27,992 nucleotides of DNA from a virus, in the IMG/VR virus record IMGVR_UViG_3300001533_002285, positions 1-27,992 of that record; one strand, written 5' to 3'. The stretch's first letter is position 1, and each line of letters opens with the position of its first letter. Under the pieces are notes generated by a model, which was not told where the DNA came from, made no database searches, and worked only from the letters and a program-made list of their open reading frames with translations. Positions 2,162 through 14,530 of the stretch are shown here, piece after piece. The position numbers and the translations under genes were made by a program.

Positions 2162-2238
2162 AAATATAATATTTTATAAAATAATATATTACATGGAGTC
2201 TAGTCTTCAGTTAATTTTTTTAATTAACCGCCATTATT
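2162..2238 (-). ncRNA. Repeated small RNA, copy 1
   Basis: Read on the minus strand: a stem-loop starting GGCGGTTAATT and closing AATTAACTG (one G-U pair), then the linker AAGACTAGACTCCA, then an AU-rich inverted repeat at 2163-2190 (7 bp, one mismatch, 6 bp). A consensus minus-strand promoter lies just upstream at 2244-2275. Three further copies are at 4973-5051, 8986-9068 and 14412-14490. No ORF is present on either strand. The function is unknown; a regulatory RNA is the simplest reading. Confidence 0.65.
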
Positions 2239-2243
2239 CTTTA

Positions 2244-2275
2244 CAAATATACGATTAATTTTTTATAATTACAAA
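2244..2275 (-). promoter_or_regulatory. Minus-strand promoter of small RNA copy 1
   Basis: Complement of 2272-2275 is TTTG and complement of 2244-2251 is TATATTTG, with exactly 20 bases between. It lies about 95 bases from the divergent + promoter at 2370-2401. The gap contains an inverted repeat (ATATTAAT, T-run, ATTAATAT, near 2306-2327) that could be an operator. Confidence 0.75.
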
Positions 2276-2369
2276 TATTTTTTAATAATTTTATAAAATA
2301 TTTGGATATTAATTTTTTTATTAATATAATTGTGTGAAATTTATTAATATCAATTATTTTTAAAAAATA

Positions 2370-2401
2370 TTTGCAAATTAAATTTTTTTTTAGTATATTT
2401 G
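2370..2401 (+). promoter_or_regulatory. Promoter for the DUF2779 nuclease gene
   Basis: TTTG 2370-2373, 20-base spacer, TATATTTG 2394-2401. The expected start site is only about 15 bases before ATG 2422, so the leader is very short. Confidence 0.85.
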
Positions 2402-2421
2402 CAGTATAAAAATTTATAATT

Positions 2422-4389
2422 ATGAAAAAAAGACTATTTACAAAGACGGTTTTTAAACTTGCAACAGAATGTCCAACAAAACCTTTTTATTATAAAAGGA
2501 AAGATACTTATGGCAATGTTGATACTGATAATGAATTTCTTATGGCACTTGCTGAAGGTGGTTTTCAAATTGCTGAACTTGCAAAATTGTATTATCCTAA
2601 TGGTATTTTAGTTAATACATATAATCATAAAAAAGCACTCGAAATAACTAACAATTTACTTAAAAAAGAAAATGTTGTTATTTTTGAGGCTGCTTTTTTA
2701 TATGAAAATTGTTTTATTCGTGTTGATATTTTAGAAAAAAAAGGTGATCAAATTAATCTTATTGAAGTAAAATCTAAGTCATTTAATTCTAATGATGTTG
2801 AAATTTTAAATAAGAAAATGACTGAAATAAGAAGTGAATGGAAACCTTATATATATGATGTTGTTTTTCAGGAATGGGTTTTAAGAAATGCAACAAATTA
2901 TAATATTGTTCCATATTTAATGTTAGCCGATAAATCAAAAAATGCAAATGTTGATTCTTTAAATCAAATGTTTCAAATAATTAAAATTGAAAATGGTAAA
3001 AAATCAGTAAATGTTATTGGTGATACTAATAATTTAGGTGAAAAAATTTTAACTAAATTAGATATAATACCTTTTATTTCTTATGTATATAAAGATTTTA
3101 AAGGTGAAAATAATTTTGAAAATACTATTTTAAATTGGTCAGATGCTTATGTTAATGATCGTAAAATACAAAATGATATAACTGATAAATGTTTTAATTG
3201 TCAGTTTAAATATAATGGTGATGAAAAAAAATCAGGTTTTAAAGAATGTATTAATACTAAATTTAAAAATGTTGATTTTTCTAAACCTATGATTGATGAA
3301 ATTTGGAATTACAGGGGTAAGAATAATTTATTAAGTAGAAATATATTATATTTAGAACAATTAAAAGAAAGTGATATTATTGGTGGAAAATCAACACCAA
3401 CAAAAGAAAGGCAATTATTACAAGTAGTTAATACGATTAATAATGTAAAAGAACCATATATTGAAAGAAATAATTTAAAAATGTATTTTAATTCTTTTAC
3501 TTATCCTTTACATTTTATTGATTTTGAGACTTCTATGGTTGCTATACCTTTCCATAAGGGAAGGAGACCTTATGAACAAATTGCATTTCAATTTTCACAT
3601 CATATAATGGAAAAAAATGGTGAAATAAGACATGCCGGAGAATATATAAGTGATGAAAAAGGTAAATTTCCTAACTTTGAATTTGTTAGAAAATTAAAAA
3701 AAGAATTAGAAAATGATAATGGAACTATTTTTAGATATGCTCCATATGAAAATACTGTTTTAAATCAAATTTCTGAACAATTAGAAAACAGTAATGAAAA
3801 AGATAAAAAGGAATTAATAGATTTTATTCGTACAATTACATATAATGATGAAATTCTTATTAATGAAAATGGTGAAATTGTTCTTAATTCAAGAAAAAAT
3901 CCAATATATGTAAAACGTATAGGTGAAAGATGTATGGTTGATATGTTAGAAATGGTTAAAAATTGTTTTTGGTCAAAAGAAATGAAAGGATCAAATTCGA
4001 TAAAAGACGTATTACCTGCTGTTCTTAATAATTCAAAATTTATCCAAGACAAATATTCTTCTCCTATATATGGAAAAGAAATAAAATCTTTGAATTTTAA
4101 AGAAATGGTTTGGATTAAAAAGGATAAAAACGGAAATGTTATTAATCCGTATAAGTTATTAGATAATAAAATATGTAATGGTGGAGAAGCTATGACTGCA
4201 TACGCAAAAATGCAATTTTCAAATATCAATGATAAAGATAAAAATGAATTAAAAAATGCTTTATTAAGATATTGTGAATTAGACACATTAGCTATGGTTA
4301 TGATATTTGAATATTGGAAGAAAAATATTACCCCGAAAAGCACTGTTTATATTTATAAAGGTGGTGAAGAAGAAATATTTTTAGATTAA
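2422..4389 (+). CDS. DUF2779 nuclease: Cas4/RecB-like domain plus DEDD exonuclease-like domain
   Basis: 655 residues. The N-terminal half has a PD-(D/E)XK core: D102 in IRVDILEKK and E115-V-K117 in NLIEVKSKS. Four cysteines, C17 alone near the start and C257, C260 and C276 together, match the FeS-cluster layout of Cas4/AddB-type nucleases. The C-terminal half opens with FIDFETSM (D367, E369), as in DnaQ-like 3'-5' exonucleases, and ends with RYCELDTLAMV (D621), the DUF2779 signature. It may therefore act on DNA ends or recombination intermediates. The biochemical role of DUF2779 proteins is not settled. It is a single-gene unit behind a consensus promoter. No CRISPR array or other cas gene is nearby, so a CRISPR role is not supported. 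Confidence 0.85.
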   Translation: MKKRLFTKTVFKLATECPTKPFYYKRKDTYGNVDTDNEFLMALAEGGFQIAELAKLYYPNGILVNTYNHKKALEITNNLLKKENVVIFEAAFLYENCFIRVDILEKKGDQINLIEVKSKSFNSNDVEILNKKMTEIRSEWKPYIYDVVFQEWVLRNATNYNIVPYLMLADKSKNANVDSLNQMFQIIKIENGKKSVNVIGDTNNLGEKILTKLDIIPFISYVYKDFKGENNFENTILNWSDAYVNDRKIQNDITDKCFNCQFKYNGDEKKSGFKECINTKFKNVDFSKPMIDEIWNYRGKNNLLSRNILYLEQLKESDIIGGKSTPTKERQLLQVVNTINNVKEPYIERNNLKMYFNSFTYPLHFIDFETSMVAIPFHKGRRPYEQIAFQFSHHIMEKNGEIRHAGEYISDEKGKFPNFEFVRKLKKELENDNGTIFRYAPYENTVLNQISEQLENSNEKDKKELIDFIRTITYNDEILINENGEIVLNSRKNPIYVKRIGERCMVDMLEMVKNCFWSKEMKGSNSIKDVLPAVLNNSKFIQDKYSSPIYGKEIKSLNFKEMVWIKKDKNGNVINPYKLLDNKICNGGEAMTAYAKMQFSNINDKDKNELKNALLRYCELDTLAMVMIFEYWKKNITPKSTVYIYKGGEEEIFLD

Positions 4390-4400
4390 TTTGTTATTTA

Positions 4401-4432
4401 TTTGTTTATTCAAAAATTTTTAAGTATATTTA
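4401..4432 (+). promoter_or_regulatory. Promoter for the HU-like gene
   Basis: TTTG 4401-4404, 20-base spacer, TATATTTA 4425-4432 (last base A instead of G). The downstream gene also has a strong AGGAG ribosome binding site at 4475-4479, unusual in this window. Confidence 0.75.
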
Positions 4433-4488
4433 TATTGTATTTATTTAATTAATTTTATTTTTAACCATTAAATTAGGAGATTTTAATT

Positions 4489-4920
4489 ATGGCAAACAAG
4501 AAAGATTTAACAATCGCAGTAGCAGAAGCTACAGGAAAAACACAAAAAGAATCAAAAAGTATTGTTGATTCAATTACTGGAATTATTTCTGGTGAATTAA
4601 AAAATGGAAACCCGGTGAAAATTGTAAATTTTGGTAAATTTTCTGTTGTTGATCGTGCTGCTCGTAAGGGTCGCAATCCTCAAACAGGTGAAGCACTTGA
4701 AATTCCTGCAAAAAGCGCTATTAAGTTTAAAGCTGGTAAAGCACTCGTAGATGCTGTCCAAGAAACTTATGATGAAGAAGATGAAAGCGGATTGGATCTT
4801 GATGATGAAGATGTTTTGGATATAGCTGAACAGGAAGATGAAGAAATTAGTGAAATTGAAGATTCTGTATCAGAAGAAAACCTTCAGGAAAATGAAGAAG
4901 ATATAGTAGAAATTAACTAA
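4489..4920 (+). CDS. HU/IHF-family DNA-binding protein with acidic C-terminal tail
   Basis: 143 residues. Residues 1-91 are a complete HU-type domain: helical N-terminus (KKDLTIAVAEATGKTQKES), then FGKFSVVDRAARKGRNPQTG with the GRNPQTG beta-arm tip, then AIKFKAGKAL. Residues 92-143 form an added tail made mostly of Asp and Glu. Ordinary HU is about 90 residues, so the tail is extra; acidic tails can weaken or redirect DNA binding, or mimic DNA. HU bends and compacts DNA, here probably the phage genome. The gene stands alone between its own promoter and a strong terminator. Codons are less AT-extreme than in its neighbours, and a true AGGAG site precedes the ATG, both consistent with high expression. 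Confidence 0.93.
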   Translation: MANKKDLTIAVAEATGKTQKESKSIVDSITGIISGELKNGNPVKIVNFGKFSVVDRAARKGRNPQTGEALEIPAKSAIKFKAGKALVDAVQETYDEEDESGLDLDDEDVLDIAEQEDEEISEIEDSVSEENLQENEEDIVEIN

Positions 4921-4938
4921 AATATCATCTTATTTATT

Positions 4939-4970
4939 AAAAGGGTTGAATAATATTTCAACCCTTTTTT
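4939..4970 (+). terminator. Rho-independent terminator after the HU-like gene
   Basis: A 12-bp stem AAAAGGGTTGAA / TTCAACCCTTTT with a six-base loop, followed by a T-run. Confidence 0.9.
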
Positions 4971-4972
4971 TA

Positions 4973-5051
4973 TTTTTTAATTTATATAATATAAATTAAA
5001 AAAATACGTGGAGTCTAGTCTTCAGTTATCAATAAATAACTGCCAAAATAA
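4973..5051 (-). ncRNA. Repeated small RNA, copy 2
   Basis: On the minus strand: GGCAGTTAT, a six-base loop, ATAACTG (7-bp stem with an A-U pair where copies 1 and 4 have G-U), then AAGACTAGACTCCA, then a perfect 14-bp AU hairpin at 4973-5003 with a three-base loop. The hairpin lies next to the terminator of the HU-like gene, so the small RNA converges on that unit. Confidence 0.7.
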
Positions 5052-5056
5052 CTATA

Positions 5057-5088
5057 CAAATATAAGAAAAATTTTTATATTTTGCAAA
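5057..5088 (-). promoter_or_regulatory. Minus-strand promoter of small RNA copy 2
   Basis: Minus-strand TTTG (complement of 5085-5088), 20 bases, TATATTTG (complement of 5057-5064). It is back to back with the + promoter at 5105-5136, 16 bases away. Confidence 0.8.
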
Positions 5089-5104
5089 TAAAAATTAATT
5101 TTTA

Positions 5105-5136
5105 TTTGTATTATTAAATTTTAATTATTATATTTG
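5105..5136 (+). promoter_or_regulatory. Promoter for the 59-aa protein gene
   Basis: TTTG 5105-5108, 20-base spacer, TATATTTG 5129-5136. Confidence 0.85.
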
Positions 5137-5168
5137 TTAAAATTATTAATTTAAAATATGAGGTTATT

Positions 5169-5348
5169 ATGGATAATAAATATAGAACATCAATAATTAA
5201 AAAATCGGGTGAAATAGTTTCTAAAAATGAATCATATAATGAAGTTGAAACATTTATATTAGAAAATATGGGGAACATTAAAAAATGTAGAACATGTGAA
5301 AAAGGTAAAAATAATATTGTTCAGGAATTATGTTTAGAAAATAGTTAA
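5169..5348 (+). CDS. Small CxxC protein, 59 aa
   Basis: ATG 5169 opens a 59-codon frame behind a consensus promoter, with GAGG eight bases upstream. The product has IKKCRTCEKGKNNI near its end (C40, C43) and a third cysteine at C55, so a small metal-binding knuckle is possible but incomplete. The N-terminal half (KYRTSIIKKSGEIVSKNESY) alternates charged and hydrophobic residues like a beta hairpin. No family recognised. The next unit starts with its own promoter right after the stop. Confidence 0.65.
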   Translation: MDNKYRTSIIKKSGEIVSKNESYNEVETFILENMGNIKKCRTCEKGKNNIVQELCLENS

Positions 5349-5352
5349 TTAA

Positions 5353-5384
5353 TTTGCAATTTAAAAAAAATTTCAATATATTTG
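5353..5384 (+). promoter_or_regulatory. Promoter for 5418
   Basis: TTTG 5353-5356, 20-base spacer, TATATTTG 5377-5384. Confidence 0.85.
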
Positions 5385-5417
5385 TAATCAAAGAAGTTTA
5401 ATTTAAATTATAAAAAC

Positions 5418-5645
5418 ATGGCAAAAACAAAAGAAAAATTAGGAAAAGTAGTAAAAAACTATAAAGGTTATAACATTCGAATTGAATTAAAAGATGTGAA
5501 AATAACCAAAAAAAATCGATTAGGTCAAGAAAAAGTTGTTGAAACAAGAAGGTGTAATAATGGAACTTATGGTATTTATGCTGGAAAGAAAAAAATAAGT
5601 GATGGTCACAAATCTATTAATGAAGCCATTTCTTTAATTAATTAA
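5418..5645 (+). CDS. Hypothetical basic protein, 75 aa
   Basis: Not recognised. It is a lysine-rich small protein with a compact beta-rich pattern (YKGYNIRIELKDVKITKK, then CNNGTYGIYAGKKKISDGHK) and a final short helix (SINEAISLIN). It could be a small nucleic-acid binding protein, but no motif proves it. It forms a single-gene unit between a consensus promoter and a strong hairpin terminator, which suggests it is expressed on its own and in some quantity. Confidence 0.75.
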   Translation: MAKTKEKLGKVVKNYKGYNIRIELKDVKITKKNRLGQEKVVETRRCNNGTYGIYAGKKKISDGHKSINEAISLIN

Positions 5646-5651
5646 AAATTA

Positions 5652-5692
5652 AAAAAAGAATAAAGGAATTAAATTCCTTTATTCTTTTTTTT
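5652..5692 (+). terminator. Terminator after 5418
   Basis: A long stem AAAAAAGAATAAAGGAAT / ATTCCTTTATTCTTTTTT with a three-base loop, ending in a T-run. Confidence 0.9.
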
Positions 5693-5706
5693 CAAATTTT
5701 ACAATT

Positions 5707-5922
5707 ATGGAAATTTCAAATAATTTAAATATAAAATCACTTGTTCAAATTATTAATAATCATAAAAATGCAGGACAAGGTGAAATTAAAAAAATGTTAA
5801 AAACCATTTATCATATAAAATATAAGTCAAAAAATTATTCAATAAAAAAAGATATTTTGAATTATAATATTCATGGTCAAGTGGTTGCTAATTTTAATGA
5901 TTTAAAACAATTAAATTCTTAA
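5707..5922 (+). CDS. Hypothetical protein, 71 aa
   Basis: Not recognised. The product is mostly helical by pattern (LNIKSLVQIINNHKNAGQGE, IKKMLKTIYHIKYKSKNYSI). It begins only 14 bases after the upstream terminator and no promoter is visible before it, so it must depend on read-through or an unseen start site. The next gene begins seven bases after its stop, making a two-gene unit. Confidence 0.65.
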   Translation: MEISNNLNIKSLVQIINNHKNAGQGEIKKMLKTIYHIKYKSKNYSIKKDILNYNIHGQVVANFNDLKQLNS

Positions 5923-5929
5923 ATAAATT

Positions 5930-6277
5930 ATGAGTAATATTGTAAATATAGAATATAATATAACAAATACAAATAATATTAATTATGAATTTGTTGAAAT
6001 ATTAGGAATTAAAAAATTTAATTCGGGTGATTTTGTAAAAGATTGGTATAATTTAATAAAATATTGTGTACAAAATCAATTAAATAATATTTTTCATTCA
6101 TCATCAGTTAATCATTTTATAATGGATGGAGCACTATATAAATCTAAATATTTATATACTTATGAAAATGGTGAATTTGAATTGAAAAATGAATATTCAG
6201 AAAATGAAATTGAATTTTTCATTGAAAAAGATAAAAATTATACATGGGATGAATTAAAAAAAAGATGTGAATATTAA
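5930..6277 (+). CDS. Hypothetical protein, 115 aa
   Basis: Not recognised. Asparagine- and tyrosine-rich; the C-terminal half is acidic (ENGEFELKNEYSENEIEFFI, then a short helix WDELKKRC). There is no signal peptide, membrane segment or known catalytic motif. It is the second gene of a pair with 5707-5922 and is followed by a fresh promoter at 6284-6315. Confidence 0.65.
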   Translation: MSNIVNIEYNITNTNNINYEFVEILGIKKFNSGDFVKDWYNLIKYCVQNQLNNIFHSSSVNHFIMDGALYKSKYLYTYENGEFELKNEYSENEIEFFIEKDKNYTWDELKKRCEY

Positions 6278-6283
6278 TTATAA

Positions 6284-6315
6284 TTTGTTATTTAAATTAA
6301 TTATTCTTATATTTG
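6284..6315 (+). promoter_or_regulatory. Promoter for 6345
   Basis: TTTG 6284-6287, 20-base spacer, TATATTTG 6308-6315. Confidence 0.85.
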
Positions 6316-6344
6316 TAATGTTGTTTAATTAAAAAAATGGAAAA

Positions 6345-6584
6345 ATGGAAAAATTAATATTAATATTTGAAAAAGATTTTGTTGACAATGAATTTAAAAT
6401 CATTAAAGGTGAATTTAAAATCATTAATGAAACAGAAAATGAAATAATTGCAGATGGTTATTTAAGTGTTATTGGTGAAGATGGTGAGTTTGAAACAGCA
6501 AAAATAACAAATGGTGTTTATGAAAAAAAATATCTTAATATGATTAAAGATATGGAAGAATATAAAAAAGAAATTAATATTTAA
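6345..6584 (+). CDS. Hypothetical protein, 79 aa
   Basis: Not recognised. The pattern is an all-beta small protein: KLILIFEKDFVDNEFKIIKG, with GEFKIINETENEIIADGYLS repeating the FKII element, then IGEDGEFETAKITNGVYEKK and a short acidic-lysine helix. An earlier ATG at 6337 is out of frame and closes after six codons, so ATG 6345 is the start. The stop is followed at once by the next promoter (TTTG at 6585), showing how tightly these single-gene units are packed. Confidence 0.7.
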   Translation: MEKLILIFEKDFVDNEFKIIKGEFKIINETENEIIADGYLSVIGEDGEFETAKITNGVYEKKYLNMIKDMEEYKKEINI

Positions 6585-6616
6585 TTTGCATTATTAAAAT
6601 TTTTTACTTATATTTG
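6585..6616 (+). promoter_or_regulatory. Promoter for the DUF4406 gene
   Basis: TTTG 6585-6588, 20-base spacer, TATATTTG 6609-6616. The leader carries GTTTAACTAAAT, seen also before 10418 and 12873. Confidence 0.85.
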
Positions 6617-6649
6617 CATTATAATTAAGTTTAACTAAATTTAAAAATT

Positions 6650-7051
6650 ATGTCAAACACAAAAGAAAAATTAAAAATTTATATCAGTGGTCCAATGACA
6701 GGATATAAAGATTATAATTATCCTAAATTTGAAAAAATTGCGGATAAATTAAGAAAAAAAGGTTATGATGTAGTTAATCCTTCTAGTGAAGTAAAACCAA
6801 TGTTAAGTAATGGTAAAGAAGTTACTGTTGATGAATTACATGAAATGATAAATAATGGTGAAATTTCTGAAAAAGAAGCATGGCGTTGTTTTCTTCGTGG
6901 AGATGTGGTTGCATTAATGATTAAATGTAATGCAATTTATATGTTGAAAAATTGGAAAAATTCAAAGGGTGCAAGAATGGAAAGAACAAATGCAAAACGA
7001 ATGGATTTTGAATATTTTGAAGAAGGTCACTCACAAATTGATCTTTTATAA
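6650..7051 (+). CDS. DUF4406 protein (nucleoside 2-deoxyribosyltransferase-like fold)
   Basis: 133 residues. The start LKIYISGPMTGYKDYNYPKF, followed by a helix and GYDVVNPSS, is the DUF4406 signature. The family shares the Rossmann-like fold of nucleoside 2-deoxyribosyltransferases (YISGPM, later a D..A/C.A.Y.L..W..S.GA..E motif, here CNAIYMLKNWKNSKGARMER). The proposed activity is cleavage or transfer of nucleoside glycosidic bonds, but most phage members are untested. It forms a single-gene unit with promoter and terminator. Together with the DeoC gene at 10418 it hints at deoxynucleoside metabolism, which is inference. Confidence 0.88.
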   Translation: MSNTKEKLKIYISGPMTGYKDYNYPKFEKIADKLRKKGYDVVNPSSEVKPMLSNGKEVTVDELHEMINNGEISEKEAWRCFLRGDVVALMIKCNAIYMLKNWKNSKGARMERTNAKRMDFEYFEEGHSQIDLL

Positions 7052-7059
7052 ATATAAAA

Positions 7060-7093
7060 TAAAAGGGATAAATTTAATTTATCCCTTTTTTTT
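7060..7093 (+). terminator. Terminator after the DUF4406 gene
   Basis: Stem AAAAGGGATAAATT / AATTTATCCCTTTT, followed by a T-run. Confidence 0.9.
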
Positions 7094-7114
7094 AAAATTT
7101 AAAAATAAAATAAG

Positions 7115-7312
7115 ATGATACTTTTAACAATATTAACAATAGTAAATAGTTTAATATTAATTTATATATTAAATGAAAAATATTTTTCTATATTTGTAGA
7201 CAAATCTTATTCTTTTCATAATAAATTATTAGGATATGGAATTTATCATAAAGGAAAAAGATTTATGTATTATAAAACTTTAAACAAAAAAATAAAAATT
7301 ATATTAAAATAG
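7115..7312 (+). CDS. Small membrane protein, 65 aa
   Basis: Residues 2-19 are strongly hydrophobic (ILLTILTIVNSLILIYIL) and form one N-terminal membrane anchor. The rest is basic and aromatic, ending in NKKIKIILK. The last 46 bases of the gene (7267-7312) are inside a 79-bp sequence repeated perfectly at 10063-10141, so part of this tail exists twice in the window. It ends with TAG. No promoter is visible after the upstream terminator. Family not recognised. Confidence 0.6.
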   Translation: MILLTILTIVNSLILIYILNEKYFSIFVDKSYSFHNKLLGYGIYHKGKRFMYYKTLNKKIKIILK

Positions 7313-7345
7313 TCAAAAATGGATATTAAAATTTAATATATAAAA
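7267..7345 (+). repeat. 79-bp perfect direct repeat, copy A
   Basis: Identical to 10063-10141. It covers the end of the 65-aa membrane protein gene, a six-codon ORF (ATG at 7319), and the first bases of the following headless ORF. The flanking bases differ on both sides. Confidence 0.9.
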
Positions 7346-7622
7346 AAAGAAAAAAGAATATAAAAAATTAACAAAACAAGTTAAAAAAGCAATTAAAAAT
7401 GATGATATTTATTATCGTATTTCTTCTTTAAATGATCAAACACCTTTAAATTTAGCAATAAAAAATAATAGATATGATTTAATAAAAAGAATATTAAAAT
7501 ATTCTGAAAAAATAAAAGAAAAAAATAAAATTATTAATTATTGTTATAAAGATAATAAACCAATAGATATGGCACAAAATGAAGAAATGATAAATTTCTT
7601 AAAAGAAAATGGCGCAAAATAA
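7344..7622 (+). pseudogene. Headless ankyrin-like ORF
   Basis: An open frame of about 92 codons with no ATG, GTG or TTG near its beginning. It contains DQTPLNLAIKNNRYDLIKRI, a good ankyrin-repeat core, and a second degenerate repeat (NKPIDMAQNEEMINFLKENG). The open frame begins just inside the right end of the 79-bp repeat and is out of frame with the short ORF at 7319-7336. The likely history is recombination that replaced the true 5' end; initiation at a non-standard codon or by frameshifting is less likely. Ankyrin repeats bind other proteins. Confidence 0.55.
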
Positions 7623-7629
7623 TTTTTAA

Positions 7630-7661
7630 TTTGCATTATTAAAATTTTTTTCTTATATTTG
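7630..7661 (+). promoter_or_regulatory. Promoter for 7693
   Basis: TTTG 7630-7633, 20-base spacer, TATATTTG 7654-7661. Confidence 0.85.
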
Positions 7662-7692
7662 TATTATATTTAAAGTTTAACCAGTCCAATTA

Positions 7693-7917
7693 ATGGACAT
7701 AAAATTTGAATTTATGAATGTTATTGCAAATTTAAAAGTTAATCCTGAAACTAAAAAGGTAATACCTGTTAAAGGTGTTGATTATTCAATTAAAAAAACA
7801 ACTTTTCGTTTAAGAATTTTTAACGAAAGACGTATTCGTTATCTTGATGTTGTTGCTAAAAAAAGAAGTCAAGCAATAAATGATCTTAAAGATTGTGGAT
7901 ATTGTTATGCTTATTAA
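7693..7917 (+). CDS. Hypothetical basic protein, 74 aa
   Basis: Not recognised. It has an arginine- and lysine-rich beta pattern (VDYSIKKTTFRLRIFNERRI, then RYLDVVAKKRSQAINDLKDC) and ends with CGYCYAY, so it has a C-x-x-C pair at the very end. A second in-frame ATG at 7714 is possible, but ATG 7693 is 31 bases from the -7 box, like other genes here. Single-gene unit. Confidence 0.7.
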   Translation: MDIKFEFMNVIANLKVNPETKKVIPVKGVDYSIKKTTFRLRIFNERRIRYLDVVAKKRSQAINDLKDCGYCYAY

Positions 7918-8699: not shown

Positions 8700-8712
8700 A
8701 TTTATTTAAATT

Positions 8713-8979
8713 ATGTTTGCAAAAATAGATCCGAGAAATATAGAAACACCAAGATTAAAAGTATTATTAGAGGATGAAAAATATGGAAATGTTTATAAAC
8801 ATATAACTGGTTTTGCTGATTCTAATATTGGAAATGTAGCAATGGTAGAATGTCCAAAATGTTTTTATAATTGGTTTTTTCATTCAAGAATAAATGAAAT
8901 GAATGGTGGTTCTTATTTTTATTTTTATCAATATATGAAAAATGGGGAATGTTTACATTTTAAACCAAAAAACAAATAA
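8713..8979 (+). CDS. Hypothetical protein with possible zinc site, 88 aa
   Basis: Not recognised. It contains ECPKCFYNWFFHSR (C47, C50, H57) and later NGECLHFK (C80, H82), so the spacing allows one zinc site of the CxxC...CxH type. The remainder is rich in aromatic residues (SYFYFYQYM). It may bind nucleic acid or protein through a small zinc ribbon; this is inference. It is the second gene of a unit with the 37-aa membrane peptide and is closed by the AU hairpin at 8986-9018. Confidence 0.7.
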   Translation: MFAKIDPRNIETPRLKVLLEDEKYGNVYKHITGFADSNIGNVAMVECPKCFYNWFFHSRINEMNGGSYFYFYQYMKNGECLHFKPKNK

Positions 8980-8985
8980 AATTAT

Positions 8986-9068
8986 TTTTATTATTTTAAT
9001 TTATTTAAAATAATAAAATAGGTGGAGTCTATTCTTCAGTTATCTTTAGAATAACTGCCATTAAAATT
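8986..9068 (-). ncRNA. Repeated small RNA, copy 3
   Basis: Minus-strand reading: GGCAGTTAT, a seven-base loop, ATAACTG, then AAGAATAGACTCCA (one base differs from the other three copies), then a perfect 14-bp AU hairpin at 8986-9018 with a five-base loop. The hairpin can also terminate the + strand gene ending at 8979. Confidence 0.7.
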
Positions 9069-9074
9069 ATATTA

Positions 9075-9106
9075 CAAATATAAGAATAATTTTTATATTT
9101 TGCAAA
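9075..9106 (-). promoter_or_regulatory. Minus-strand promoter of small RNA copy 3
   Basis: Minus-strand TTTG (complement of 9103-9106), 20 bases, TATATTTG (complement of 9075-9082). It is back to back with the + promoter at 9127-9158. Confidence 0.8.
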
Positions 9107-9126
9107 TAAAAAATTATTTTTTAAAA

Positions 9127-9158
9127 TTTTTATTATTCATTTTTTATTCTTATATTTG
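9127..9158 (+). promoter_or_regulatory. Promoter for 9184
   Basis: TATATTTG 9151-9158 with TTTT at the -33 position (9127-9130), a weaker match. The spacer contains ATTCATTTTTTATT, shared with the promoters before 10418, 11262 and 14091. Confidence 0.65.
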
Positions 9159-9183
9159 TAATATAAATAATTATTTAAAAATT

Positions 9184-9459
9184 ATGAAAACTATATTATC
9201 AAAAGAAAAACAAGATTATTTAATTAAACTATGTAATAAACACATAGAAGGATTTGATATTATAAAAATGGATATGAATATTGAATATGTTCATTTTATA
9301 AAAATAAATGGACATTCAAAATTTTATGGAAAAGATAATAAACCTTTTGAAATTCCAGTATATAATTATGAAAAAATACATTGGGTTGAAGTTGTTTCAA
9401 TTATATTACCAAAATATATCGATTTATCTTCTGAGCAATTAATTAAAATATTTGTTTAA
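9184..9459 (+). CDS. Hypothetical protein, 91 aa
   Basis: Not recognised. The frame is open further upstream with a TTG at 9100, but that would lie in front of the -7 box, so ATG 9184 behind AAAATT is the credible start. The product has an alpha-beta pattern: helix SKEKQDYLIKLCNKHIEG, strand NIEYVHFIKINGHSKFYG, then FEIPVYNYEKIHWVEVVSII. No catalytic motif, signal or membrane segment. Confidence 0.7.
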   Translation: MKTILSKEKQDYLIKLCNKHIEGFDIIKMDMNIEYVHFIKINGHSKFYGKDNKPFEIPVYNYEKIHWVEVVSIILPKYIDLSSEQLIKIFV

Positions 9460-9475
9460 TTTAAAAATATTAATT

Positions 9476-9532
9476 ATGAATTTATTAGAACAAATAAAAA
9501 ATAATAATCTTTCTAAAAAAGAAAATGTTTGA
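9476..9532 (+). CDS. 18-codon ORF before a stranded C-terminal fragment
   Basis: ATG 9476 behind the usual leader encodes MNLLEQIKNNNLSKKENV and stops at TGA 9530-9532, overlapping the next ORF in another frame. It may be a leader peptide or the 5' stub of a gene disrupted when the MORN-like C-terminal fragment was joined here. Coding status uncertain. Confidence 0.35.
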   Translation: MNLLEQIKNNNLSKKENV

Positions 9533-9662
9533 AAGTTATTTTTTAAATGATAAAAAAGTTTCAAAAGAAGAAGTAATGAATACTTCTAAAACCATTAATA
9601 TAAAAGGAAAAGAAGTTAGTGAAGAAACAATTTTAATTGCTTTGAAAAATTATTTTAAATAA
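9525..9662 (+). pseudogene. Stranded C-terminal module of the MORN-like family, 45 aa
   Basis: Frame MFESYFLNDKKVSKEEVMNT, then KTINIKGKEVSEETILIALK. This is the last third of a repeat plus the conserved C-terminal module of the proteins at 1-241, 248-736 and 12401-12805, without their repeats. An ATG at 9525 could start it, overlapping the preceding short ORF by eight bases. Near identity to the partial copy at 1-241 suggests recent duplication or gene conversion. It may be a decaying remnant, or the module may have a role by itself. Confidence 0.6.
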
Positions 9663-9800
9663 AAATTGTAATATTCATTTTTTATTATTATATTTTTAAT
9701 AATAAATAGTTATAAAAAATTTTAAATTAAAACAATAACTTAATTGATTTATTTGCTATATATTTTATTAATAAATAGGTAAACAAAAATATATAAAATT

Positions 9801-9971
9801 ATGAAAGGACAATTTGTAATTATAGATCTTAGAAATATGGATTTTATGAAAAATGAAAAAGGTAAAATTAATTTCTATGATACAATGGAAGAAGCTTGTG
9901 ATATATGTGGTATGTATGAATTTGAAAATGTTTGGGTAATGAAACTTATGTATAATCATATAGAAGATTAA
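9801..9971 (+). CDS. Hypothetical acidic protein, 56 aa
   Basis: ATG 9801 follows the leader AATATATAAAATT. The product begins MKGQFVIIDLRNMDFM and ends with an acidic helix (YDTMEEACDICGMYEFENV, then VMKLMYNHIED). It has the pattern of a short strand followed by two helices. A weak promoter-like TATATTTT lies at 9689-9696. The pattern resembles small phage proteins with a one-strand start such as FVIIDL, but no family can be named. Confidence 0.6.
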   Translation: MKGQFVIIDLRNMDFMKNEKGKINFYDTMEEACDICGMYEFENVWVMKLMYNHIED

Positions 9972-9984
9972 ATATAGTTTTTTA

Positions 9985-10016
9985 TTTGTAAATTATAAAA
10001 ATTATTATTATCTTTG
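9985..10016 (+). promoter_or_regulatory. Promoter before the second headless ORF
   Basis: TTTG 9985-9988, 20-base spacer, TATCTTTG 10009-10016. No intact ATG-initiated gene follows within 400 bases. Confidence 0.7.
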
Positions 10017-10062
10017 TAAAAAATTAAATATATTGTTAAATTAAAAAAATTGATATTGAAAA

Positions 10063-10141
10063 GTATTATAAAACTTTAAACAAAAAAATAAAAATTATAT
10101 TAAAATAGTCAAAAATGGATATTAAAATTTAATATATAAAA
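10063..10141 (+). repeat. 79-bp perfect direct repeat, copy B
   Basis: Identical to 7267-7345, 2.8 kb away. Here the upstream half of the 65-aa membrane protein gene is missing; only its last codons (through TAG 10106-10108) remain, joined to an unrelated leader. Confidence 0.9.
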
Positions 10142-10344
10142 TATTAAAAAAAGTTAAAAAACAAGCTAAAAAAGGAAAATTCAATTATGAATTTAAAGAA
10201 CCTGTGGTTGGTAATTTAAAAACACTAAATTATAATGAACAATTAATTTTGAAAAATTTAGGATATGATATAAGAATAATATCTGTTGATATAGAGGGAT
10301 TTGTATATAGTCAATATTATTATATAACAACAATATTATGGTAA
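10126..10344 (+). pseudogene. Headless ORF after repeat copy B
   Basis: A 72-codon open frame without any ATG. It contains KKVKKQAKKGKFNYEFKEPV, then LNYNEQLILKNLGYDIRIIS and VDIEGFVYSQYYYI. It is unrelated to the ankyrin-like frame behind repeat copy A and lies in a different phase relative to the repeat. A 5'-truncated gene left by recombination at the repeat is the likely explanation. The 9972-10417 interval holds nothing else apart from promoters and the repeat. Confidence 0.5.
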
Positions 10345-10358
10345 AAATAAAAAATTAT

Positions 10359-10389
10359 TTTGAATATTCATTTTTTATTATTATATTTG
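10359..10389 (+). promoter_or_regulatory. Promoter for the deoC-like gene
   Basis: TTTG 10359-10362, 19-base spacer containing ATTCATTTTTTATT, TATATTTG 10382-10389. The leader has GTTTAACTAAAT. Confidence 0.85.
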
Positions 10390-10417
10390 TATCATTGTTT
10401 AACTAAATATTTTAATT

Positions 10418-11143
10418 ATGAGTAAATTTAATTTTTTAACGGATTACACTTCTTTAACAACAAAAGAAACAATAAAAGATATTGTTGAACTTTGTATTAA
10501 AGCTAATAAAATTGGTGTAAAATCTGTTTGTATTTATCCACAATGGGTAAATACAGCAAAAGTTGCTTTAAGTGCATTAAAATCAAATGTACTTGTTTGT
10601 ACAGTTATTTCATTTCCTGAAGGAAATAAATCAACAAAAGAAAAACTTGAAGAATGTCAAAAAGCAATTGATGATGGTGCTGATGAAATTGATATGGTTG
10701 CTAATTATCAATTAGTTAAAGAAAATTGGGATTCTAAACTTGAAAAAGTCGATGAAAATATTTCTCAATTAATTTTAACTGATATATTAAAAATGGTATC
10801 ATTATGTCATAACAATAACAAAATTTTAAAAGTTATTGTTGAAAGTGGTGTTTTGACACTTGAACAAACAAAGTATTTTACAGAAATTTGTTATAAAGCA
10901 AACGCTGATTTTATCAAAACATCAACTGGAAAAGTATCTGTTGGTGCAGAAATTGAAAAAGTTAAAATTATGAGAAATACCATTAATGATTTATGTGGAA
11001 ATATGAATATTAAAGCATCTGGTGGTATAAGAACATTAGAAGATCAAGATAAATTTTGGTATTATGTAGATCGTTTTGGTATGGATTTTGGTTCTGTTGA
11101 TAAAATCAATAACATTGATGAAACAGTTAATGAAGAATATTAA
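10418..11143 (+). CDS. deoC: Deoxyribose-phosphate aldolase
   Basis: 241 residues, near the usual class I DeoC length of 220-260. Motifs: TDYTSL at the N-terminus, VCIYPQWV, DEIDMVANY (D92), the Schiff-base lysine K167 in DFIKTSTGK, and K199 in NIKASGGIR. The enzyme reversibly splits 2-deoxyribose-5-phosphate into glyceraldehyde-3-phosphate and acetaldehyde, the last step of deoxynucleoside breakdown in the cytoplasm. The family's catalytic residues are all present, so it should be active. It is a single-gene unit between a consensus promoter and a strong terminator. In a phage context it may feed degraded host DNA sugars into energy metabolism; that is inference. Confidence 0.94.
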   Translation: MSKFNFLTDYTSLTTKETIKDIVELCIKANKIGVKSVCIYPQWVNTAKVALSALKSNVLVCTVISFPEGNKSTKEKLEECQKAIDDGADEIDMVANYQLVKENWDSKLEKVDENISQLILTDILKMVSLCHNNNKILKVIVESGVLTLEQTKYFTEICYKANADFIKTSTGKVSVGAEIEKVKIMRNTINDLCGNMNIKASGGIRTLEDQDKFWYYVDRFGMDFGSVDKINNIDETVNEEY

Positions 11144-11166
11144 AAATTAATTTTCTTTTCTTAAAT

Positions 11167-11201
11167 AAAAAACCACTTTTTAATAAAAAAAGTGGTTTTT
11201 T
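11167..11201 (+). terminator. Terminator after deoC
   Basis: Stem AAAAAACCACTTTTT / AAAAAGTGGTTTTTT with a short loop and a following T-run. Confidence 0.9.
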
Positions 11202-11202
11202 A

Positions 11203-11234
11203 TTTGTTTTATTCATTTTTTATTATTATATTTG
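11203..11234 (+). promoter_or_regulatory. Promoter for 11262
   Basis: TTTG 11203-11206, 20-base spacer, TATATTTG 11227-11234. The -33 box abuts the T-run of the deoC terminator. Confidence 0.85.
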
Positions 11235-11261
11235 TATCATAAATAATTAAAATTTAAAATT

Positions 11262-11552
11262 ATGTTAAAATTATTAATTGAATCATATTTAAGATTACAA
11301 GTTATTTCAAGAAAAGAAAATAATACTTTAATTGCTATTGAAACAGATTCTACAAGAGCAAATTTAAGAGATGAAATTTCTAAACAAACAGATGTTGAAT
11401 CTTTACATGTTCAAGAATTTATTGAAATGCAGGCTTGTAAAATAAAAAATGGTGAAAATTTTGATGAAATATTAAATGAAACACAAAATATATTAATTGC
11501 AGATATTATTGCACATAATGATATATTTTTTTGTCAAACTTGTAAAAATTAA
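11262..11552 (+). CDS. Hypothetical protein, 96 aa
   Basis: Not recognised. It is predicted mainly helical: KLLIESYLRLQVISRKENNT, a polar middle (TDSTRANLRDEISKQTDVES), and a long acidic helix (FDEILNETQNILIADIIAHN). It ends with FFCQTCKN, a C-x-x-C pair three residues from the end. Its stop lies five bases before the probable start codon of the next frame, so the two probably share one transcript. Confidence 0.7.
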   Translation: MLKLLIESYLRLQVISRKENNTLIAIETDSTRANLRDEISKQTDVESLHVQEFIEMQACKIKNGENFDEILNETQNILIADIIAHNDIFFCQTCKN

Positions 11553-11557
11553 AAATT

Positions 11558-11800
11558 ATAAAAAAAGAAACAGCAGAATTAATAGTTAATAAATCAGGAT
11601 TAGGTGAATTATATGAAAATTATTCAGGTCGTGGAATGTATGGTAGAAAAACCACAGGTATAGTTTTTAGTAGTCAAGAATTTTTTGAAGCTATTGCTGA
11701 AATTATAATATATGGTGATGAAGAAGAAAGAGAAGAACTTGCTGAATATCTAACTGAAATAAAATCAGACAATCTTGCTTTAGATCAAATATATTATTAA
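11558..11800 (+). CDS. Conserved hypothetical protein with apparent ATA start, 80 aa
   Basis: The frame runs from a stop at 11546-11548 to TAA 11798-11800. It contains KKETAELIVNKSGLGELYEN and YSGRGMYGRKTTGIVF, which I recall from small phage proteins where the KKETAEL-like part is near the start. There is no ATG upstream of residue 26. At 11558 the context AAAATT-ATA-AAAAAAGAA is exactly the local start context with ATA in place of ATG. Either the start codon has mutated, or there is a sequencing or assembly error, or ATA is used, or translation begins at the internal ATG and gives about 55 residues. It lies five bases after 11262-11552. Confidence 0.55.
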   Translation: MKKETAELIVNKSGLGELYENYSGRGMYGRKTTGIVFSSQEFFEAIAEIIIYGDEEEREELAEYLTEIKSDNLALDQIYY

Positions 11801-11805
11801 TATTA

Positions 11806-11837
11806 TTTGTTTTATTTATTTTTTATTATTATATTTG
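11806..11837 (+). promoter_or_regulatory. Promoter for the KH protein gene
   Basis: TTTG 11806-11809, 20-base spacer, TATATTTG 11830-11837. Confidence 0.85.
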
Positions 11838-11862
11838 TATCACAAACTAATAAAAAAAAGAT

Positions 11863-12159
11863 ATGTTTAATTTAAGAAGAAAAAAAAGTAAAGAAATAAA
11901 ATTAAATAACTTAATTAAAAGAGTTATTTATAATTTTTATCTTAATAACAATCAAAAAGTTTTAAGTACAATAACAAATATATCTTTTGAAGATTCAAAA
12001 GATAATCTTAAACTTGTTATTGAAACACATAGACCGGGATTAATAATTGGTAAACAAGCAAAATTTGTTTTATCATTAGTTAATTCTTTAAAAGATGTTT
12101 TTGAAAAGAAAATAAATGTTGATGTAAAACAAACAAATTTTTGGGAATTTAATAATTAA
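11863..12159 (+). CDS. KH-domain RNA-binding protein, ribosomal protein S3-like
   Basis: 98 residues. After a basic N-terminus (NLRRKKSKEIK) comes one KH domain: a strand (KLVIETHRPGL), then IIGKQAKFVLSLVNSLKDVF, then strand KINVDVKQ. The RPG-IIGK start is the type II KH pattern of ribosomal protein S3. The usual GxxG loop reads GKQA (63-66), losing the second glycine, which may weaken or change RNA contacts. It is much shorter than S3 (over 200 residues), so it is not a ribosomal protein copy but a single-domain relative. It probably binds single-stranded RNA in the cytoplasm. It is first in a unit with the ORF at 12166. Confidence 0.75.
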   Translation: MFNLRRKKSKEIKLNNLIKRVIYNFYLNNNQKVLSTITNISFEDSKDNLKLVIETHRPGLIIGKQAKFVLSLVNSLKDVFEKKINVDVKQTNFWEFNN

Positions 12160-12165
12160 AATATA

Positions 12166-12361
12166 ATGAAAAAATATAAAAATATATTATCTTTTTGGGT
12201 AAGACATGAAAATGAAAAAATAAAATTTGTTGATTTTGATTGGGATAAAATATGGATACTTGTTAAATATAAAATTTTTAAAAGAAAAAAAAATAAAATT
12301 TAAAGTAATAAAATCTGTAGGTAAACAAGAATATTTAATACAGTTTTTATATTATTTATAA
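12166..12361 (+). pseudogene. Small gene with probable frameshift at an A9 run
   Basis: ATG 12166 opens a 45-codon frame, MKKYKNILSFWVRHENEKIK onward, stopping at 12301-12303. A second frame continues through IKFKVIKSVGKQEYLIQFLY to TAA 12359-12361, and the two overlap around a run of nine A at 12285-12293. One base of slippage joins them into one protein of about 64 residues. This may be a sequencing or assembly error, a true mutation, or programmed slippage. It follows the KH gene by six bases. No family recognised. Confidence 0.5.
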
Positions 12362-12377
12362 ATTATTCTTATATTTG
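12346..12377 (+). promoter_or_regulatory. Promoter for the interrupted MORN-like gene
   Basis: TATATTTG 12370-12377 with TTTA at the -33 position (12346-12349). Similar to the promoter at 12808 in its spacer (ATTATTTATAAATTATTCT). Confidence 0.6.
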
Positions 12378-12400
12378 TAAAAAATATTAAATAAAAAATT

Positions 12401-12805
12401 ATGAAAGAATATAAAGTAATAATAGAAGGATTAACAGAAAAATGGTTTGAAAATAATCAAAAGATTAAAGAAATTATTTATTATGAAAATGGTCAGAAAT
12501 GTTATGAAGATTATTATTTAGATAATAAATATCATAGAGAAGATGGACCAGCTTATCAAAGATAGTATGAAAATGGTCAAAAAGAATATGAAGAATATTA
12601 TTTAAATGGTAAATTACATAATGAAAATGGACCAGCTTATCAAGGTTGGTATAAAAATGGACAGAAAAGATATGAAGAATATTATTTAAATGGGAAAGAA
12701 GTTTCAAAAGAAGATGTAATGACACCAAAGAAAACCATTAATATAGGTGGAAAAGAAGTTAGTGAAGAAACAATTTTAATTGCTTTAAAGAATTATTTTA
12801 AATAA
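12401..12805 (+). pseudogene. MORN-like repeat gene interrupted by TAG
   Basis: ATG 12401 starts MKEYKVIIEGLTEKWFENNQ, closely like 248-736. The frame is interrupted at TAG 12563-12565, where the paralogues have TGG (the W of the WYENGQK repeat). It then continues unbroken for 79 codons (two repeats and the C-terminal module) to TAA 12803-12805. Total length without the stop would be 134 codons. A single G-to-A change explains it. Amber readthrough or reassignment cannot be excluded, but other genes here end with TAG. It has its own promoter. Confidence 0.75.
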
Positions 12806-12807
12806 AA

Positions 12808-12839
12808 TTTGTATTATTTATAAATTATTCTTATATTTG
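12808..12839 (+). promoter_or_regulatory. Promoter for the 25-aa peptide
   Basis: TTTG 12808-12811, 20-base spacer, TATATTTG 12832-12839. The leader has GTTTAACTAAAT. Confidence 0.85.
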
Positions 12840-12872
12840 TATAATAATTGTTTAACTAAATTTTATAACATT

Positions 12873-12950
12873 ATGAAAAAAGAAATAATTAAAAAAGACA
12901 TTTTAGATGATGTTGATTATCCAGAACCATATCCAATGCCTGGATGGTAA
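12873..12950 (+). CDS. 25-residue peptide gene
   Basis: ATG 12873 behind a consensus promoter and the leader box GTTTAACTAAAT encodes a 25-residue peptide. It starts MKKEIIKKDILDDVDYPEP and ends YPMPGW, with a basic amphipathic first half and a proline- and aromatic-rich tail. A terminator follows 44 bases later, so the transcript has no other gene. Its complete set of signals suggests a real micro-protein, possibly a host-takeover inhibitor, but nothing in the sequence gives its target. Confidence 0.6.
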   Translation: MKKEIIKKDILDDVDYPEPYPMPGW

Positions 12951-12993
12951 AAAATTTTAAAGGTTAGTAATTTTTTAAAGGTTGAGTTTATTT

Positions 12994-13025
12994 AAAAACC
13001 ACTTAAATATTAAGTGGTTTTTTTA
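12994..13025 (+). terminator. Terminator after the 25-aa peptide
   Basis: Stem AAAAACCACTTAA / TTAAGTGGTTTTT with a short loop and a T-run. The following 180 bases (13026-13205) hold only an ATG-less frame of about 35 codons ending at TAA 13181-13183 (EILFFCLKFYNKLSKHLECK), which looks like a gene remnant. Confidence 0.85.
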
Positions 13026-13205
13026 ATTATTAATTAAAAAAATTAATTGAAGAATTTGAAAAATGATTTATAAATTTTAAAATTAATTTGGAAATATTAT
13101 TTTTTTGTTTAAAGTTTTATAATAAGTTATCTAAACATTTAGAATGTAAAATAAATATTGTTGAAGTTAATCTTCTTAAATAAATTAAATTTTAAAATAA
13201 AAATT

Positions 13206-13370
13206 ATGATAACACCAGAAATAATTAATAAAGCAAAACAAAATATTGATAAAAGAAATGCCAAAAAATATTTTAAAAACGAACTTTTTAAAAATTTCTT
13301 TATTGGATTTTTAATAGGTTTATTTTTAGGATTATTATTATGTGGTATAATAATAACCTTAATTCTTTAA
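13206..13370 (+). CDS. Small membrane protein, 54 aa
   Basis: ATG 13206, behind AAAATT, is the credible start; an upstream in-frame TTG at 13158 lacks start signals. The first 28 residues are charged and helical (ITPEIINKAKQNIDKRNAKK). The last 25 are strongly hydrophobic (FFIGFLIGLFLGLLLCGIII) with a glycine every fourth residue, as in helix-packing GxxxG segments. It is a tail-anchored single-span protein of unknown role. The next gene starts six bases after its stop. Confidence 0.65.
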   Translation: MITPEIINKAKQNIDKRNAKKYFKNELFKNFFIGFLIGLFLGLLLCGIIITLIL

Positions 13371-13375
13371 AAATA

Positions 13376-13573
13376 ATGATATATCAAAAAACACCAGATA
13401 AAACAAATAAATTATTTCTTTATAGAAAAGAAATGCCAAAAAATCAAACCCAACTTGGAATGTTATTCGCAGCACTTGATATGTATTGTATATGGGGTGG
13501 TTTTGATACTAGTAATGAAGATTATATAAGTTGGGAATTTGATAAATGTATTACAGAAAAAATTATTAAATAA
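13376..13573 (+). CDS. Hypothetical protein, 65 aa
   Basis: ATG 13376 is chosen over an upstream in-frame TTG at 13340 that lies inside the previous gene. Not recognised. It contains YQKTPDKTNKLFLYRKEMPK and LGMLFAALDMYCIWGGFDTS, the latter a short hydrophobic helix that may pack in the protein core rather than cross the membrane, and ends in an acidic-aromatic segment (YISWEFDKCITEKIIK). It is the second gene of a unit with the small membrane protein. Confidence 0.65.
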   Translation: MIYQKTPDKTNKLFLYRKEMPKNQTQLGMLFAALDMYCIWGGFDTSNEDYISWEFDKCITEKIIK

Positions 13574-13660
13574 GCATTAATACGTGGTGGTTGTAATTTA
13601 CAATAATATTATTATATGTAATTACATATAATAAAAAATTAAATTTTAAAACTTATAATT

Positions 13661-13887
13661 ATGGATAGAGAATTATTTAAAAAAGAATGCTTAAAATTAG
13701 ATATTGAAACATATAATAAAGCAAAAGAATTACAATGGGAAAAAGATAAAATAAAAAAGAATTTATATGGTGATTTATCTAATTGTAAATATTGTGGTAG
13801 AAAATATATAGTATATGTGATAAAGCTGAAAAAGAATGGGAAAATATTATAACTGAAGTTAAAACTATTTCAGGATTTAATGAATAA
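13661..13887 (+). pseudogene. Small zinc-knuckle-like gene with probable frameshift
   Basis: ATG 13661 opens a frame that reads MDRELFKKECLKLDIETYNK and then CKYCGRKYIVYVIKLK to TAA at 13852. Near 13803 a neighbouring frame continues YSICDKAEKEWENIITEVKT to TAA 13885-13887. Joining the two by one base gives CKYCGRK-YSICDKAEKEWE, a much more natural protein with a CxxC and a further cysteine. The junction is in an A/T repeat (AGAAAATATATAG). Error, mutation or slippage are all possible. Function unknown. Confidence 0.55.
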
Positions 13888-13962
13888 AATAAAATAAAAT
13901 AAAATATTTTATTATATTTTATTATACTATAATTATAATATATTGAATAATCTAAATTTGAA

Positions 13963-13994
13963 CAACTATAAGAAAATTTTTTAAATAATACAAA
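13963..13994 (-). promoter_or_regulatory. Minus-strand promoter without the small RNA body
   Basis: Minus-strand TTTG (complement of 13991-13994), 20-base spacer, TATAGTTG (complement of 13963-13970). Its surroundings resemble the promoter part of small RNA copy 4, but the conserved stem and linker are absent. The transcript would run into AT-rich inverted repeats at 13885-13930. Confidence 0.5.
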
Positions 13995-14017
13995 TAAAAA
14001 TAATTTTTTAAAATAAA

Positions 14018-14050
14018 TTTGCAATATTCATTTTTTTTATATTATATTTG
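14018..14050 (+). promoter_or_regulatory. Promoter for 14091
   Basis: TTTG 14018-14021, 21-base spacer containing ATTCATTTTTTTT, TATATTTG 14043-14050. Confidence 0.8.
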
Positions 14051-14090
14051 TATTACAAATAAATTTATTATTAATTAAATTTTAAAATTT

Positions 14091-14321
14091 ATGAAAAAAT
14101 TAATATTATTAGTATTATTAGTTTTAACAATTAATCTTAATGCTGTAAACGAAAAAATTGATAACAAAGAAAAAATTTATAAAACAGATTGTAATTGCCA
14201 TAAAAAAGAAAAATGTGAACGTAGTGTTGGTTTTTACATATTTTCTTCTTTATTTTTTGGTTTTGTTATAATAATAAATTATAAATGTTATAAATATAAA
14301 GGTGATAATTCATATTTATAA
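14091..14321 (+). CDS. Small exported or membrane protein, 76 aa
   Basis: Residues 1-18 (MKKLILLVLLVLTINLNA) form a signal peptide or first membrane span, with an NLNA-V cleavage-like end. The middle is polar with cysteines (DCNCHKKEKCERS), and residues 47-62 (GFYIFSSLFFGFVIII) form a second span, followed by a basic tail. The layout, two spans with a cysteine-containing loop between them, is reminiscent of small phage envelope or spanin-type proteins, but no motif proves this. It forms a single-gene unit with promoter and terminator. Confidence 0.7.
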   Translation: MKKLILLVLLVLTINLNAVNEKIDNKEKIYKTDCNCHKKEKCERSVGFYIFSSLFFGFVIIINYKCYKYKGDNSYL

Positions 14322-14352
14322 TTAAAGAATATTTAAAAAAATAAAACATTAG

Positions 14353-14387
14353 AAAAAGTGAAATTAATATAATTTCACTTTTTTTTA
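14353..14387 (+). terminator. Terminator after 14091
   Basis: Stem AAAAAGTGAAATTA / TAATTTCACTTTTT with a three-base loop and T-run. Confidence 0.9.
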
Positions 14388-14411
14388 TATAAAAAAACAA
14401 GATACGTTAAA

Positions 14412-14490
14412 AATAAAATATTATATTTTATAATATTTTATTATACATGGAGTCTAGTCTTCAGTTATTTAAAAATAACCGCCAATAAAA
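14412..14490 (-). ncRNA. Repeated small RNA, copy 4
   Basis: Minus-strand reading: GGCGGTTATT, loop, AATAACTG (8-bp stem with a G-U pair), then AAGACTAGACTCCA, then a perfect 14-bp AU hairpin at 14412-14442 with a three-base loop. The interval 14322-14682 otherwise holds only the terminator above and AT-rich sequence. Confidence 0.65.
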
Positions 14491-14498
14491 TTATAATA

Positions 14499-14530
14499 CA
14501 AATATAAGAAAAATTTTTTAATAATCCTAA
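14499..14530 (-). promoter_or_regulatory. Minus-strand promoter of small RNA copy 4
   Basis: TATATTTG (complement of 14499-14506) with TTAG at the -33 position after a 20-base spacer, so the -33 box is weaker than in the other three copies. Confidence 0.65.

Follow-up and report, generated by a model that had tools for sequence, protein, structure and literature searches.

Genomic context of the elements

The window, by which we mean the whole analysed stretch of 27,992 nucleotides, is a 28-kb virus fragment with 19% G+C, and its genes include those for HU, a sigma factor, DUF2779, SprT, ClpS, a ClpA-like ATPase, an RNA ligase, a NUDIX protein and a KH-domain protein. Together with the promoter type described below, this gene set points to a large Bacteroidota phage as the source. 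The ClpA-like protein shares 61-63% identity with proteins of the megaphages LR756502 and LR745206, and no close kin turned up for other window genes. Dispersed among the genes are four copies of a short element on the minus strand, each detected by pattern and model matches and by its fold, which are listed here with their promoters and the neighbouring features.

2162..2240, minus strand: RNA copy 1, with a transcript predicted at about 79 nt and an inferred start about 4 nt past the -7 box; 5' hairpin 2230-2208, core 2208-2190, imperfect AU hairpin about 2189-2162
2244..2275, minus strand: promoter of copy 1; TTTG 2275-2272, TATATTTG 2251-2244
4489..4920, plus strand: HU-like DNA-binding protein (phrog_379, 3.4e-32), also near the RNA copies in relatives
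4939..4968, bidirectional: GC-containing hairpin ending the HU unit; could also end RNA copy 2
4973..5053, minus strand: RNA copy 2; 5' hairpin 5042-5023, core 5023-5005, AU hairpin 5003-4973 (14 bp)
5057..5088, minus strand: promoter of copy 2; TTTG 5088-5085, TATATTTG 5064-5057
8986..9071, minus strand: RNA copy 3; 5' hairpin 9057-9037, core 9037-9019, AU hairpin 9018-8986 (14 bp)
9075..9106, minus strand: promoter of copy 3; TTTG 9106-9103, TATATTTG 9082-9075
14353..14383, bidirectional: GC-containing hairpin ending a plus-strand unit; could also end RNA copy 4
14412..14495, minus strand: RNA copy 4; 5' hairpin 14481-14462, core 14462-14444, AU hairpin 14442-14412 (14 bp)
14499..14506, minus strand: -7 box TATATTTG of copy 4; -33 box degenerate (TTAG)

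Some other features of the window may be recorded. A KH_2 protein, a possible RNA partner, is encoded among the RNA copies (11863-12159). About 600 bp at 17224-17831 are gene-free, with a G+C content above the rest, and may hold an ncRNA or an origin. YwqK/MORN-like ORFs are repeated (WYENGQKEYEEYYLN) at 1-240, 248-736, 9525-9662 and 12401-12805, some of them truncated or interrupted (stop at 12563), and a LAGLIDADG homing-endonuclease-like ORF lies between phage genes on the minus strand at 22272-23321.

Constant block, promoters and hairpins of the four copies

Common to the four copies is a 20-nt block, namely TAACTGAAGA, then C or A, then TAGACTCCA, of which copy 3 carries the single variant in its core (GAATAGACTCCA). 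When searched with up to 3 mismatches, the block matches the window solely at 2194-2213, 5009-5028, 9023-9042 and 14448-14467, with 0 matches expected from 100 shuffles. Identity among the copies is 98% in the block, 36% in the leader and 63% in the stretch 3' of the block, and composition alone gives 35%.

The consensus of the Bacteroides sigma-AB promoter is TAnnTTTG at -7 with TTTG near -33 (PMC7366714). On the minus strand of the window, the strict form TTTG-N18-22-TAnnTTTG occurs 5 times in total, against 1.4 in shuffles, and 3 of these occurrences are the promoters of copies 1-3. The gap from the end of the -7 box to the GGC is 11, 12, 15 and 15 nt in the four copies. Each copy has a promoter of its own directly upstream, which is one of the marks of a phage trans-acting small RNA. 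Just beyond copy 1 the minus strand has another promoter with both boxes (TTTG at 2153, TATATTTG at 2129), followed by a hairpin, TTGATATAAA...TTTATATCAATTTTTC, and the family core is absent from this stretch; the minus strand of 2153-2050 looks like another small RNA gene outside the core family.

The AU hairpin, here called P3, is interrupted in copy 1 and is a perfect 14-bp stem in copies 2, 3 and 4, where it stays perfect in spite of differing arms. Perfect stems of at least 13 bp number 11 in the window and 0.15 in shuffles; the 11 comprise the three AU hairpins and others, including GC-containing stems that end plus-strand units. On the minus strand the AU hairpin of copy 2 lacks a U-tract, so that it is not just a terminator. 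The nearest good terminator of copies 2 and 4 is the bidirectional GC hairpin shared with the plus-strand unit, and a clear U-tract terminator was found at neither copy 1 nor copy 3.

Most of this layout had been described in a sequence-only reading of the window, and our searches recover it: four minus-strand copies at those places, a linker constant except for one change in copy 3, a TTTG-N20-TAnnTTTG promoter whose -33 box is degenerate in copy 4, 11-15 bases from promoter to stem-loop, an AU hairpin of 14 perfect base pairs in three copies, and a variable base forming A-U or G-U at position 2 of the 5' stem.

A related 348-kb phage

Scanning with the HU protein of the window led to two near-identical contigs of 348 and 345 kb, which share with the window HU, SprT, NUDIX and a 75-aa protein. 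When a model (R1) trained on the four copies of the window was run against 24 large contigs, its best matches fell exactly on this pair and within the shared region. By pattern search the 348-kb phage has five elements, at 224.9, 229.7, 235.5, 237.5 and 239.9 kb, thus within 15 kb, all on one strand and near HU, SprT and tRNA genes. The core of these elements is GAGUAGACUCCAANUUGCG, a TATnTTTG/A box stands directly before each of the five, and at the end of one element there is a hairpin plus U-tract. Before the second copy of this phage lies an unannotated stretch with a T-arm-like GGTTCGAATCC (L155:7500-7740), which was called neither tRNA nor tmRNA.

Distribution in Bacteroidota phages

Two further profiles were built, one from the window, the 348-kb relative and LR745206 (R2), and one a sequence profile containing neither the window nor the 348-kb phage (R3). 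R2 finds the copy of LR745206 at 6e-10, this being a training sequence to which R1 had first given an E-value of 0.6; outside the training set it matches elements in IMG/VR at 1e-6 to 1e-4 and the Tenacibaculum phage Larrie at 1.4e-4. In the window, the top four R3 matches are its four copies, all on the minus strand, at E-values of 0.019-0.24, so that they are found by a profile lacking them, as expected of homologues. These direct E-values are weak and the copies are missed at E 0.1 in a filtered search, the link being made via the 348-kb phage. By R3 there are 5 copies in the 348-kb phage, 3 in Larrie and 1 in LR756502, with a range of 1-6 per phage.

Among 50,697 phage records, Larrie gave the lowest E-value in BLAST both with a 43-nt consensus (4e-4) and with a single element (9e-3), and the other meaningful matches were LR745206 and LR756502, two megaphages of about 640 kb; the 43-nt consensus had no meaningful match in plasmids. 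The pattern GANTAGACTCCAAYYTGC matched 36 stretches in 30 contigs of IMG/VR, of which 1 is clearly a chance match (L260, with 54% GC and no promoter) and 2 were already known. There remain about 27 further contigs, and in most of them a TAnnTTTG promoter lies 20-66 nt upstream of the element; in such pattern-found rows the conservation of the core is given by construction, and the promoter and hairpins are independent of it. In the phage with six copies (IMGVR_UViG_3300012147_000006, L310-L313), every copy is preceded by TTGTAACTTTTTnAA...ATCGTTATA, apparently a promoter specific to this phage. Larrie has its three copies on the plus strand, at 16.9, 18.8 and 19.4 kb, in gaps, and its genes are nearly all on the minus strand.

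The layout shared by the family is a promoter, a leader which in many members has its own hairpin, GGG[C/U], the 5' stem (P2) and the core, to which an AU-rich P3 is often added. The core is GANUAGACUCCAACCUGC in most members and GAMUAGACUCCAYGUA in the window.

Other searches gave nothing. At its curated thresholds Rfam 15 has no match in the window and only tRNAs in the 348-kb relative, and nothing sensible appeared even with E-values up to 10. The exact 20-mer of the window does not occur in IMG/VR, and looser patterns of the window linker and stem gave 23 and 23 stretches, all within unrelated sequence. A single match in GTDB, to a Phycisphaerales MAG with the window-type core as query, is at chance level. 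No relatives came from the sigma-factor and DUF2779 scans, and R1 found nothing convincing in the 80 large-phage loci reached by a ClpA scan. Several weak R2 matches (L201, L203, L204, L212, L223-L225) were discarded, their core plus promoter being missing.

Conservation of the 5' stem

In an alignment of the window, the relative phage and the megaphage, for which the loops were cut to equal length without affecting the pairs, 91% of stem pairs are standard and 16 cells are double changes, compared with 6.4 after shuffling, and sliding the register gives a far poorer result in every case. Stem pair 2 occurs as A-U, G-U, G-C or U-A, and pair 5 in five pair types. Among 20 distinct rows, double changes are seen in 7/7 stem pairs, with 31 cells against 10.7 shuffled, in an alignment made by a model and hence fitted to the structure. 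Outside the window, P2 shows a modest excess over shuffles (combined p 0.013), and a subgroup (L199, L248, L262) may be without it. P3 is above shuffles overall, with the window copies contributing most; several relatives have a weak P3 or none. Some folds also showed a closing helix, P1, which was rejected, as it is not above shuffles.

For the 5' stem, then, structure is kept by compensatory change. That the copies form a minus-strand RNA family with pair-conserving stem changes had been claimed from the four copies, where the evidence is thin (one wobble position), and it is the homologues that bear it out; a stem broken while the sequence is retained as a DNA site, which had been named as the result that would speak against the claim, is not seen in them. 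The further argument that wobble pairing favours the minus-strand RNA holds in direction and is weak in strength, with 82 of 90 cells pairing on the RNA strand and 75 of 90 on the other.

Interpretation and alternatives

From this comparative evidence, the elements very probably constitute an undescribed phage ncRNA family, and it is likely, though less firmly so, that they both form such a family and act in trans. In the window, the four elements are predicted to be independent genes for one phage RNA of about 80 nt, read from the minus strand by sigma-AB promoters. The core alone is constant and both hairpins vary, for which reason the hairpins are taken as holders and the core as the trans contact: the hairpins would hold and protect the single-stranded core, and the core would meet a conserved partner in trans. 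Action in trans is favoured because the core is constant while the arms vary, and because the element is multi-copy, occurs in either orientation and has no fixed neighbour. No constant neighbour gene pointing to a partner was found, synteny being restricted to close relatives. Five loci have SprT-like genes, but these are common in any case.

As to the partner, the leading guess is that the phage makes several copies in order to sequester or divert a conserved factor of Bacteroidota, one that binds RNA or works in transcription or translation, with the RNA serving as decoy or cofactor. The protein-decoy mechanism is a guess, which we hold to be somewhat less probable than its negation, and still more tentative is the wider proposal that a widespread multi-copy RNA captures a host factor of Bacteroidota, be it an RNA-binding protein, RNA polymerase, the ribosome or a defence component. 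Transcription, trans action, the protein partner and the decoy role are what we infer, and so is the ranking of partners, in which the protein decoy or cofactor comes before base-pairing with host RNA, and this before mimicry of a defence RNA.

The most probable alternative is a base-pairing small RNA that would control either a conserved host RNA or phage mRNAs through pairing with its core. The exposed, nearly invariant 18-nt core with hairpins on either side is laid out as seed regions usually are, and phage small RNAs of the base-pairing kind, PreS and VpdS, are known (PMC12197685). In addition, copy 1 of Larrie (L276:16964-17026) has about 50 nt downstream a perfect anti-core, GGAGTCTACCC, which is able to hide the core, so that pairing of the core is possible at least in cis. 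However, the core fits neither the 5' regions of the genes of Larrie and the window nor the nine tRNAs of the 348-kb relative better than shuffled cores do, and near the window gene starts there is no complement of at least 7 nt with useful G+C. The suggestion in the sequence-only reading that the linker could pair with mRNA thus finds no support against phage 5' regions. Because of this lack of fit to phage mRNA starts and tRNAs, a conserved host partner is put first, and we regard base-pairing as possible but rather unlikely.

Improbable, to a greater degree, is counter-defence by RNA, in which a mimic of a host defence RNA would poison the defence complex as Racrs do by mimicking CRISPR repeats. 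A short RNA right behind a strong promoter, unlinked to a gene and present in several copies, is the arrangement of solitary repeat units (PMC10651486). But no Rfam CRISPR-repeat family was matched beyond chance, and one core runs through phage clades with likely different hosts, whereas Racr repeats are matched to the host.

There is little probability that the elements act in cis, on the minus transcript or on the plus-strand units, as terminator, antiterminator or blocker of read-through at the ends of plus-strand operons. Each window copy faces the end of a plus-strand unit and its 3' hairpin could stop RNA polymerase. The rule noted earlier, that the copies are directed against coding-unit ends, is true of the window and of Larrie and fails in the 348-kb relative, where 5/5 copies run with the genes; moreover, downstream of the window copies there is no gene on the minus strand, the plus-strand units at copies 2 and 4 have their own terminators, and the invariance of the 18-nt core would be left unexplained. 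Least probable of all is a DNA element (a site for protein binding, recombination or packaging) instead of an RNA, for although the elements are dispersed, intergenic and in either orientation relative to genes, and inverted promoters flank the element in some contigs, several phages, one of them using a different promoter motif, show a fixed promoter spacing, stem changes are compensatory with hairpin arms that vary freely and retain pairing, and the wobble asymmetry, small as it is, favours the RNA strand.

Relation to known phage RNAs and significance

The RNA family preferred here resembles PreS of lambda and VpdS of VP882 in being short, in having a promoter of its own and in flanking an exposed stretch with hairpins (PMC12197685). 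Those two are each from single phages and have Hfq as helper, whereas the window RNA belongs to a multi-copy family across distant Bacteroidota phages, and Bacteroidota hosts have no obvious Hfq (PMC7366714). With Racrs it shares the position of a small RNA immediately after a promoter in a phage genome and the lack of a linked protein gene (PMC10651486), and it differs in bearing no resemblance to CRISPR repeats of Rfam and in having a core common to several phage clades. The family is also a conserved structured phage RNA like GOLLD and ROOL, but has a size of about 80-120 nt and matches no Rfam family. GOLLD and ROOL are large phage ncRNAs of conserved structure and unknown role, hundreds of nucleotides long. 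Phage small RNAs are therefore a known kind; what is new, as far as our searches reach, is a multi-copy family over distant Bacteroidota phages that is absent from Rfam.

Phages of Bacteroidota are abundant, and phage ncRNAs are mostly known from hosts bearing Hfq. That phages ranging in size from 77 kb to 640 kb carry multiple copies of a conserved RNA with a fixed core implies a single host target common to them, which could be found by pull-down. Since Tenacibaculum phage Larrie has been isolated and has copies of its own, tests of expression, deletion and partner are feasible. If the capture of a host factor is true, distant Bacteroidota phages would share one RNA-based device for takeover or counter-defence.
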